Source of the DNA: Ruminococcus sp. | Lineage (GTDB): Bacteria > Bacillota > Clostridia > Oscillospirales > Ruminococcaceae | NCBI RefSeq assembly: GCF_017549005.1 | Contig: NZ_JAFYYT010000009.1 | Coordinates: 1-64,000, forward strand | Reading direction: 5' to 3' | DNA: 64,000 nucleotides | Shown here: positions 48,235 through 50,846 of the stretch, piece by piece | How positions within the stretch are numbered: the first letter of the stretch is position 1 | Layout: every line of letters starts with the position of its first letter | Made by a program: the position numbers and the translations under genes | Notes under the pieces: generated by a model | What the model saw: only the letters and a program-made list of their open reading frames with translations | Database searches by the model: none | Told to the model about the DNA's origin: nothing

Positions 48235-49164
48235 ATGAAAAAATATCTGAGGATCATATCACTTTTGGCTTTTATATCAGCATTCGTACTCTTTCCATTG
48301 AAGCCTCTGTACACCGAGGCTTCGCCGAGACGTGCCGATTTCGGCGACTTTTCAGGCGATTCGGACTTCGGCGACAGCGGCTGGGACAGCGGTGGCAGCG
48401 ACTGGGACAGCGGCGGCAGCTGGGACAGTGACAGCGGCAGCTACAGCAGCAGCGGCAGTTCGGGAAGTGCGAGCTGGGGCGAAACGATCATTGTTTTAGC
48501 TGTTATCATCGTTATTATCATTGCTTCGGCTTCTTCAAACAAGAAAAAGAGCAGTTCTGCGCTCCCTCCGCCTGTGAATACTCCTGCTCTGCGCCGTGTG
48601 GAGGAATATACGCAGATAGACCCGAGCTTCAACGCGGAACAGTTCAGGGACAAGGTCTCAAATCTCTATGTACAGTTCCAGAACGCATGGCAGAAAAAGG
48701 ACCTCTCCCCTCTCAGACCTTACCTCACAGATACATATTATTCGCAGATGGATAACCAGCTCAGCAGATACCGCAACAGCGGTCAGACCAACATTGTCGA
48801 CAGGATAACCGTCCTGAAGACCGAACTCATGGGCTGGAAACAGGAAAGCGGCTTCGACGAGATGATAGTAAAGCTCGATACACGTATCGTTGACTACGTT
48901 GTTGACGACAATACGGGCAATATCGTCCGCGGCAGCAAGACCGCCGAGAAGTTCATGACCTACGAATGGACTCTCGTCCGCACTACAGGCGTGACTACCT
49001 CGCGCTCCACAGGCACGACGGGTCAGACCTGTCCGTACTGCGGCGCAAGCGTGAATATCAATCAGTCCGCTGTATGCGAGTACTGCGGCTCTGTCCTCAC
49101 AACGGACAAGTTCGACTGGGCTGTAAGCAATATCAAGGCTCTTGCACAGCGTACACGCCAGTAA
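48235..49164 (+). CDS. Tim44-like domain protein with zinc ribbon
   Basis: 309 residues. Signal peptide (about 1-29), a Gly/Ser/Asp-rich linker with repeats of DSGG and DWDSGG (about 38-75), a membrane helix (about 84-101, IIVLAVIIVIIIASAS), a Tim44-like domain (FRDKVSNLYVQFQNAWQKKDLSPLRPYLTDTYYSQM) and a C-terminal zinc ribbon CPYCGAS...CEYCGS. With a Tim44-like domain this protein family is membrane-tethered; its role in bacteria is not established. Strong AAGGGGGG site and own promoter. Follows the sporulation genes but need not belong to them. Confidence 0.72.
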   Translation: MKKYLRIISLLAFISAFVLFPLKPLYTEASPRRADFGDFSGDSDFGDSGWDSGGSDWDSGGSWDSDSGSYSSSGSSGSASWGETIIVLAVIIVIIIASASSNKKKSSSALPPPVNTPALRRVEEYTQIDPSFNAEQFRDKVSNLYVQFQNAWQKKDLSPLRPYLTDTYYSQMDNQLSRYRNSGQTNIVDRITVLKTELMGWKQESGFDEMIVKLDTRIVDYVVDDNTGNIVRGSKTAEKFMTYEWTLVRTTGVTTSRSTGTTGQTCPYCGASVNINQSAVCEYCGSVLTTDKFDWAVSNIKALAQRTRQ

Positions 49165-49236
49165 GCTTTCTGAACAGACCAATACGGGCTGCCCATCGGC
49201 AGCCCTTGCGATTATACTCCATACGAGGTGGGAAAC

Positions 49237-49920
49237 ATGAAGGAAAGGATACTTATCTGCGATATGTCGCCGAGTCTCGGCAGACTGTTAGTGCGTAGCT
49301 TCATAAATACAGGCATTCAGGCAGACTTCTGCCGCGGAAGCCTGTCCGCCATAAAAAACGCAATGTCAAAGAAAAAGTACAGCTCCCTGCTCTTTTTTGC
49401 TTTTTCTCCCGATGAACAGCTCCTTGACTTTGCCAAAGCCAGCGCTGAAAGCGGTATAAAGGTGTTTGTGGGACTGTATTCGGGCTCTGCCTCCGTACAC
49501 AGGAGCTTCCGCAGCGCAGGCGTCTCAGCGTCATTTACCATGCCCTGCTCCGTCAGAGGAATGTGCGTAAGCGTTCTCATGCGTATCGGAAATACAAAGG
49601 ATATCCTTTCACAGATAGAGATATTTCTCGAGGAAACAGGCTTTCCCAGGCGGCTGAAGGGCTTTGCCTACCTTGCAGGCATGAGTACGGCCTGCCTGAC
49701 AGCTCCGGAAAGACTGTGGGGCGGTTTGTCGGAGCTGTACAGCGAAACTGCGGAAAAGCTCTTCACAGAACCCTCTCTTGTGGAAAGGGCTGTGAGAAAT
49801 CTCAGCGCCCATGCCACCGAAAACGGCTCGGTATCACGCCTGACCGAGGGCAGGCTCACCGTAAAGCCAACAAATACGGAGCTCATTTGTGCAGTATGCG
49901 ATAAGTTTACTCGCCGTTAG
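49237..49920 (+). CDS. Spo0A-like DNA-binding protein with degenerate receiver
   Basis: 227 residues. The C-terminal half matches the Spo0A DNA-binding domain: RRLKGFAYLAGM (Spo0A HIKGYQYL), LYSETAEKLFTEPSLVERAVRNLS (the recognition helix, VERAxR kept) and KPTNTELICAVCDKF (Spo0A KPTNSEF). The N terminus has the size of a receiver domain, but the acidic pair is reduced to one Asp (LICDM), the phosphorylated Asp of LVLDIxMP is absent (LLFFAFSP), and the Lys of LKPF is Met (FTMPC). So it should bind DNA without Asp phosphorylation. The ATG is chosen for GAGG 8 bases upstream. It lies behind the yqfCD region and before a response regulator. Confidence 0.82.
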   Translation: MKERILICDMSPSLGRLLVRSFINTGIQADFCRGSLSAIKNAMSKKKYSSLLFFAFSPDEQLLDFAKASAESGIKVFVGLYSGSASVHRSFRSAGVSASFTMPCSVRGMCVSVLMRIGNTKDILSQIEIFLEETGFPRRLKGFAYLAGMSTACLTAPERLWGGLSELYSETAEKLFTEPSLVERAVRNLSAHATENGSVSRLTEGRLTVKPTNTELICAVCDKFTRR

Positions 49921-49995: not shown

Positions 49996-50024
49996 TTGAC
50001 ATTTTTGTAAAACTGAGTTATAAT
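49996..50024 (+). promoter_or_regulatory. Promoter of the two-component operon
   Basis: TTGACA (49996-50001) and TATAAT (50019-50024), spacer 17 bases: full consensus. The leader is about 110 bases. Confidence 0.8.
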
Positions 50025-50138: not shown

Positions 50139-50846
50139 ATGGCTAACGAAAAAAATCCAAAGGTACTTATAGTTGACGACGATAAGAACATCTGCGACCT
50201 TCTCCGCCTCTATCTTGAAAAAGACGGATACAGTGTTCTTCTCTGTCACGACGGCGACGACGCTGTTGTTAAGTTCAAGGCTCTCAGCCCCGATATGGTG
50301 CTGCTCGATATAATGCTGCCCGGTAAGGACGGCTGGCAGGTATGTCGTGAGATCAGAAAAATCTCAAACGTTCCGATCATTATGATCACTGCCAAGGGGG
50401 AAACTATCGACAAGGTAATCGGACTTGAGCTGGGCGCTGACGACTATATTGTAAAGCCTTTCGACGCCAAGGAAGTAATAGCCCGTATCAACGCTGTTAC
50501 ACGCCGCGTTGGCACTGGTATGGCTGAGCCCGAGCAGAAGGAAGTACACTACGATAAGCTTACTGTCAATATGGACAGCTATGAGCTGAAGGTAAACGGA
50601 AAGAATATCGACACTCCGCCTAAGGAACTGGAGCTTCTCTATTACCTTGCTTCCAATCCGAACAGAGTTTATACCCGTGACCAGCTTCTTGATGAAGTAT
50701 GGGGCTTTGAATACTACGGCGATTCACGTACCATTGACGTACATATCAAGCGTCTCCGTGAAAAGCTCGACGGTGTTTCCGACAAATGGACTCTCAAAAC
50801 AGTCTGGGGCGTCGGATACAAGTTCGAGGCTGATGAAGAGGAATAA
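50139..50846 (+). CDS. OmpR-family response regulator
   Basis: 235 residues. Receiver domain (VLIVDDDKNICDLLRLYL, phospho-Asp 57 in MVLLDIMLPGKDG, Lys in DYIVKPFDAKE) and winged-helix DNA-binding domain (PPKELELLYYLASN, RTIDVHIKRLREKL). Full set of conserved residues, in contrast to the Spo0A-like gene just before. Partner kinase follows 65 bases on, across a terminator-like hairpin. Belongs to the PhoB/WalR-type group; the ligand or signal is unknown. Confidence 0.95.
   Translation: MANEKNPKVLIVDDDKNICDLLRLYLEKDGYSVLLCHDGDDAVVKFKALSPDMVLLDIMLPGKDGWQVCREIRKISNVPIIMITAKGETIDKVIGLELGADDYIVKPFDAKEVIARINAVTRRVGTGMAEPEQKEVHYDKLTVNMDSYELKVNGKNIDTPPKELELLYYLASNPNRVYTRDQLLDEVWGFEYYGDSRTIDVHIKRLREKLDGVSDKWTLKTVWGVGYKFEADEEE

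Follow-up and report, generated by a model that had tools for sequence, protein, structure and literature searches.

Spo0A is the textbook target of the phosphorelay. Most spore-formers are said to possess a single Spo0A (PMC4890492), and pseudo-receivers are already a known kind, as set out in a review of atypical regulators (PMC12632262) and in the ALR survey (PMC4395418); HP1043 of Helicobacter pylori is described as phosphorylation-independent. The word Spo0A is absent from the main text of that review and occurs twice in the survey, once for a mutant with Glu in place of Asp and once in a reference entry.

The window analysed here, a stretch of 64,000 nucleotides from a Ruminococcus genome of 3.33 Mb and 93.8% completeness, encodes a Spo0A-family paralog that appears to have lost the residues of phosphorylation. 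It is referred to as SPOX, a label used for the product of the open reading frame 49237-49920 on the forward strand and for its counterparts in the genus. The frame starts with ATG at 49237 and its stop codon ends at 49920; there is also an in-frame GTG at 49228. The gene and the elements directly upstream are:

49237..49920, forward strand: SPOX gene, Spo0A-family pseudo-receiver regulator of 227 amino acids (open reading frame, Pfam match, relatives, AlphaFold)
49225..49232, forward strand: ribosome-binding stretch GAGGTGGG (sequence)
49186..49205, forward strand: hairpin downstream of the Tim44-like gene and ahead of SPOX, a candidate terminator or attenuator with a poor U tract (folding)

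When 12 upstream regions were folded, the G+C-rich hairpin was present in 8, being clear in the window and at loci L036, L037, L039, L041, L043, and L046 and weaker at L045; at L035 one is found farther upstream, L042 has another arrangement, and L047 and L048 have none. It was not reported by a terminator scan of the window, and it may act as terminator of the upstream gene or as attenuator of SPOX. The upstream gene (48235-49164) is Tim44-like with a zinc-ribbon tail; diverged tandem copies of it occur in several relatives (several of L038-L048). The gene next to SPOX on the other side, 50139-50846, encodes an OmpR-type response regulator, the promoter of which (49996-50024) is a 12/12 match to TTGACA-17-TATAAT.

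The N-terminal half of SPOX has the following elements:

49237..49587, forward strand: pseudo-receiver domain, residues 1-117, five beta-alpha units (AlphaFold secondary structure, Foldseek receiver matches)
49261..49266, forward strand: residues 9-10, Asp-Met replacing the Asp-Asp metal pair (alignment with canonical Spo0A)
49396..49398, forward strand: residue 54, Phe at the position of the phospho-acceptor Asp, in strand beta3, residues 50-55 (alignment, AlphaFold)
49474..49476, forward strand: residue 80, Leu where Thr/Ser is conserved (alignment with canonical Spo0A)
49540..49542, forward strand: residue 102, Met at the position of the switch Lys, MP versus KP (alignment, AlphaFold)

The receiver fold is assigned from the predicted structure only, not from sequence; the Response_reg profile PF00072, at E<=1, had no match in the window protein and, at E<=0.01, matched 4 of the 30 members of the SPOX alignment A2. 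The AlphaFold model, built with 15 sequences (the window protein and 14 relatives), reaches a mean pLDDT of 87.9, with about 90 across residues 1-110, and a pTM of 0.58. In residues 4-117 it predicts strands at 4-8, 28-32, 50-55, 75-80, and 98-101 alternating with helices at 12-24, 36-45, 60-71, 85-93, and 106-117, followed by a helical domain after residue 117. The top PDB match by Foldseek was the receiver of H. pylori HP1043, at 19% identity, with an E of 2.3e-6 and a TM by target of 0.86; many further receivers followed at lower ranks, and so the comparison with receivers proposed in the preliminary description came out in favor of this fold.

In the alignment with canonical Spo0A, the active site of the window protein reads D9, M10, F54, L80, and M102, that is, four of five positions are replaced by nonpolar residues and Asp9 is kept. 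The same description, made from the letters of the DNA, had held that the acceptor Asp, one residue of the acidic pair, and the switch Lys (to Met) were replaced, all of which is borne out by the aligned columns: Phe54 occupies the acceptor column, where no Asp is recovered, Asp9/Met10 the acidic pair, and Met102 the Lys column. Phe54 is invariant among the near relatives. Asp59, retained in nearly all near relatives, was considered as a relocated acceptor; this is unlikely, given that it lies five residues past Phe54, outside beta3, and is unconserved in the wider set. Judged by its active-site residues, SPOX would need no Asp-phosphate.

The C-terminal half, by comparison, can be placed by its sequence:

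49621..49905, forward strand: Spo0A_C DNA-binding domain, residues 129-223 (Pfam PF08769, Foldseek 1fc3_A)
49780..49797, forward strand: recognition helix VERAVR, residues 182-187, with E213, R214, and R217 of B. subtilis kept (alignments)
49846..49851, forward strand: approximate place at which six residues, among them F-G-Y-T-V/I (B. subtilis 236-240), are deleted (alignments, between which the place of the gap varies)
49864..49875, forward strand: KPTN motif, residues 210-213 (sequence)

The Spo0A signature read earlier from VERAVR, KPTN, and KGFAYL is thus confirmed, the Spo0A_C profile matching the window protein at 3.4e-13 with 49.9 bits (51.7 bits in the genome scan; gathering score 25) and all 30 members of alignment A2. 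The equivalog model of Spo0A itself, TIGR02875, gives 41.4 bits and does not reach its cut-off of 200, and Foldseek lists the Spo0A C-domain 1fc3_A at rank 41, with 32% identity. A feature absent from the preliminary description is the loss of F-G-Y-T-V/I: the R217-N249 linker has 25 residues without F-x-Y in the window protein and 31 in full Spo0A. This segment is presumably the sigma-A activation surface of B. subtilis Spo0A, of which S231, F236, and V240 were reportedly found by Hatt and Youngman in 1998 to be needed for sigma-A-dependent activation; the B. subtilis sequence does have S, F, and V at these positions. The residues E213, R214, and R217, which we take to be base contacts of B. 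subtilis Spo0A, are mostly kept, at 43, 39, and 45 of the rows, respectively, in a 46-row SPOX set chosen by linker length and non-Asp acceptor; the R214 position is non-Arg in the other seven. Directly after the recognition helix, SPOX reads R-N-L and Spo0A R-H-A.

The two peculiarities go together in the genus. When SPOX was picked by the C-domain only (full-length genus rows with an R217-N249 linker <=28 and no F-x-Y/F, the receiver being ignored), 48 of 139 genus rows were obtained, rows being distinct sequences and not genomes, and none had the acceptor Asp: the acceptor column held F in 34, L in 3, T, N, and Y in 2 each, and V, G, I, S, and E in 1 each, and the Lys column M in 34, L in 8, V and F in 2 each, and A and T in 1 each, without a single K. 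Conversely, a pick by the receiver only (no acceptor Asp, Lys changed to M or L) gave 42 rows, the linkers of which were all <=27. The 48 rows are the 46-row set plus L026 and the contig-cut L032. The doubtful row L242 (G015), with acceptor Asp and a 38-residue linker, was left out of the SPOX counts, and L243 (linker 16, acceptor Ser) was kept because it stands at the purD locus. Among Spo0A rows of other genera, the linker has 31 residues in 49 of 49, and the acceptor is D in 38, E in 9, S in 1, and N in 1; the Glu is given as aligned. Rows of the canonical-pocket type with FFGYTVDT carry the acceptor Asp in 40 of 41 cases; 16 of these 41, namely L001 of the window genome and its orthologs from the R. 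flavefaciens group, have Arg for the switch Lys. SPOX cannot be told by the length of the linker alone, since 10 further genus rows with linkers of 26-28 keep F-x-Y/F, 7 of them with the acceptor Asp. A Spo0A-like group of the genus (L233-L239, L296, L297) has linkers of 26-27, mostly with F-x-Y, and many members with an acceptor Asp but no acidic pair.

Four Spo0A_C matches were found by the profile scan of the window genome, namely SPOX and three others. L001 (251 aa) is a Spo0A with intact Asp pocket (D, D, D, T, and Arg replacing Lys), so that the search for a canonical Spo0A suggested earlier was answered positively; L002 has Ala at the acceptor position; and L003 (C4:6202-6513) is a C-domain alone of 121 aa. 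The earlier view of SPOX as a second member of the family accordingly stood as regards an Asp-less protein separate from the genome's true Spo0A, and has to be corrected in number, SPOX being the fourth Spo0A_C gene. Among the matches listed, many genus genomes have Spo0A_C proteins that stand alone, with an open frame of about 110-190 aa and no room for a receiver. There is also a second group of Spo0A paralogs with full linker (L002, L207, L210, L211-L214, L219, L226, L230, L232), several species of which have A, S, E, Y, or N where the acceptor Asp would stand; as judged from the sequences, a phosphorylation-dead Spo0A has arisen here by another path.

According to a hand count from locus-to-genome lists, an SPOX-type gene is found in at least 30 of the 40 genus genomes that are >=90% complete (G000, 005, 007, 008, 009, 010, 012, 014, 018, 023, 024, 025, 029, 030, 031, 034, 037, 039, 040, 041, 043, 044, 045, 047, 048, 049, 057, 254, 255, and 256), G005 being the weakest call. 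Among the matches listed, the other ten (G002, 006, 011, 015, 026, 027, 038, 042, 051, 257) have no SPOX-type row, a weak copy being possible. SPOX is, then, carried beside a normal Spo0A by many rumen and gut Ruminococcus. A search with the window protein itself gave matches in 59 of 60 genus genomes, the weak ones being largely other Spo0A paralogs. The named-genome scan yielded 14 loci with 47-72% identity to SPOX; they belong to R. flavefaciens (strains or MAGs), to other MAGs of Ruminococcus, and to one MAG whose name says only Bacillota. In all 14, SPOX is preceded by a Tim44-like gene and followed by genes for the response regulator, a histidine kinase, and an HtrA-like protease. Members outside this near group share 23-30% identity with the window protein, and in other Ruminococcus species the surroundings differ, purD or the unknown gene c2 being nearby at 10 of the 20 loci fetched. 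Occurrence outside the genus was considered and rejected: among the matches listed, no SPOX-like best match was obtained with the SPOX profile in 193 other-genus genomes, the best other-genus match in the 198 genomes searched (5 of them Ruminococcus) scored 129 bits versus 293 for the window gene, and the 49 aligned other-genus rows all have the 31-residue linker.

By these sequences, SPOX is an old paralog of Spo0A that is widespread in the genus Ruminococcus. In a tree of 126 C-domains, which has few columns and long branches and in which the SPOX labels were assigned with knowledge of the receiver residues and include the doubtful L242, the 42 SPOX-labelled rows lie on one side of a branch with SH-aLRT 88. 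In a 96-row tree without the linker columns, the 46 SPOX rows take 2 changes, and a single clade, though not demonstrated, is compatible with the data (p-AU 0.38). Selection was estimated by Nei-Gojobori dN/dS on the closest 16 pairs of the 14 near relatives, 14 pairs having a finite dS; among these, the ratio is 0.13-0.28 for the whole gene, 0.14-0.34 for the N-domain, and 0.08-0.32 for the C-domain. The adjacent response regulator, with 0-0.018 in the same comparison, is 97-100% identical across the 14 loci. SPOX is thus fast-evolving but constrained in both halves.

With family placement and loss of phospho-chemistry well supported by the sequences compared, SPOX would be a phosphorylation-independent pseudo-receiver regulator and probably a repressor or antagonist of Spo0A, a reading to which we give a probability of roughly 0.45. 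The receiver of an old Spo0A paralog would have become a pseudo-receiver; the protein would dimerise or bind DNA without Asp-phosphate, with an activity that would depend on how much of it is present or on some partner; and it would read 0A-box-like sites through the E-R-x-x-R recognition helix. Because the F-G-Y-T-V/I segment is deleted, it should be unable to activate sigma-A promoters in the classical way, if the segment has the role ascribed to it above. Base-reading residues that are kept and a putative activation segment that is lost would, by the roles assigned to them, make SPOX mainly a repressor, or let it compete with Spo0A~P for sites used by both, and it may be a natural brake on sporulation genes. 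A more far-reaching version is rather doubtful: a natural dominant-negative Spo0A of Ruminococcus that occupies 0A boxes constitutively, blind to phosphorylation and without activation surface, and that sets the threshold of sporulation and, in some species, that of a domesticated phage-head cassette as well. If true, it could help to explain the restraint on sporulation in gut bacteria that retain spore genes.

The closest competitor of the repressor reading, somewhat less probable but to be taken seriously, is that SPOX stands alone as a regulator, active at all times and in charge of a regulon of its own, in the manner of HP1043 or ChxR; it would then use other activating contacts and not antagonize Spo0A. 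HP1043 is the top structural match, and many atypical regulators dimerise without phosphate (PMC12632262). R-N-L in place of R-H-A may mean that a different site is read, and 0A boxes are not in excess in the window, with 38 matches of the 0A-box type versus a chance mean of 37.24. Boxes in the window or near SPOX were rejected as targets, a point against the repressor reading too: the strong promoter of the downstream response regulator contains a 0A-like stretch, but only the nearest relatives share it, and no conserved 0A site emerged when the interval between SPOX and the next gene was compared across relatives. Speaking against a stand-alone role are the loss of F-G-Y-T, which does not fit classical activation, and the kept base-reading residues, which favor overlap with 0A boxes. 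That SPOX is a decaying paralog heading for loss would agree with its fast divergence and with the ten of 40 genomes lacking a copy among the matches listed, G042 having none at the syntenic place; it is nevertheless very improbable, as the frames are open (no internal stops among the matches listed), the dN/dS values denote constraint on both domains, and both contain invariant residues. The related proposal of a decayed Spo0A in a non-sporulating line finds no support. Besides the Spo0A with intact pocket, the window genome contains genes for SASP and SpoIVA and one resembling SpoIIE, which at 244 bits stays under the curated cut-off of 490.8, and the dN/dS is well below 1; SASP and SpoIVA are found in 39 and 40, respectively, of the 40 genus genomes >=90% complete. 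Sporulation genes are thus retained in the genus, and SPOX is not a remnant in a lineage that has shed them; R. bromii is reported to sporulate (PMC5814915).

Control of a conserved phage-head cassette is a further conceivable, though improbable, role. The cassette comprises small and large terminase, portal-like, capsid, and protease-like genes and four small genes, the portal and protease names being guesses, and is seen at G000:C41 (L149, L150), L084, L086, L093, L094, L098, L243, and L261. It is a candidate, by its genes, for the formation of gene-transfer-agent-like particles. In 4 of 20 distant loci, SPOX stands directly upstream of the cassette on the same strand (L084 in G024; L086 in G028, where the small-terminase frame is not called separately; L093 in G052; L094 in G008). 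It is near the cassette in L098 (G007), with one 468-aa gene in between, and in G005, with one gene in between and the cassette inverted. For Ruminococcus callidus, gene-transfer-agent-like packaging of 4.6-kb genome fragments in capsids is reported, and such operons are described for Faecalibacterium (PMC12946183). At E<=1e-10, the large terminase has matches in 57 of 60 genomes of the genus; its best match is 68-89% identical in 55 genomes (100% in the query genome; G039 with fragments only), while G006 and G021 reach only 50% and 37%. A role of SPOX as general regulator of the cassette is weakened because the terminase is family-wide, occurring at E<=1e-60 in 79 of 145 genomes of other genera, whereas no SPOX-like best match was obtained in any of the 193 among the matches listed. 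Moreover, SPOX and the cassette terminase lie on different contigs in the window genome, the latter on C41; in G042, the purD locus has the cassette but no SPOX; and the shared neighborhood may go back to one ancestral arrangement.

Should the repressor reading hold, a conserved phosphorylation-dead paralog without putative activation segment would be a brake on, or a rewiring of, the sporulation decision in fiber degraders of rumen and gut, and a case within the Spo0A family in which nature has parted DNA reading from activation; SPOX makes sporulation control in Ruminococcus directly testable. In the open-licence PMC literature on Spo0A paralogs, Asp-less regulators, and Spo0A in Ruminococcus, no description of such a protein was found, the nearest report among these papers being that on the second Spo0A of Clostridium thermocellum, Clo1313_0637 (PMC4890492). 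Like SPOX, this is an extra Spo0A homolog in one genome; it is 56% identical to the first homolog, and a loss of the phosphorylation site is not stated in the parts of that paper drawn on here. With HP1043, ChxR, and RitR (PMC12632262, PMC4395418), SPOX has in common a receiver fold without the residues of phospho-chemistry and a DNA-binding output, from which it differs in that the output domain is Spo0A_C. With Spo0A of B. subtilis and the Clostridia (TIGR02875, PF08769), it shares the two-domain layout, Spo0A_C, the E-R-x-x-R helix, and KPTN, but it lacks the acceptor Asp, the Thr, and the Lys as well as the F-G-Y-T-V/I segment, and remains far from the equivalog score.
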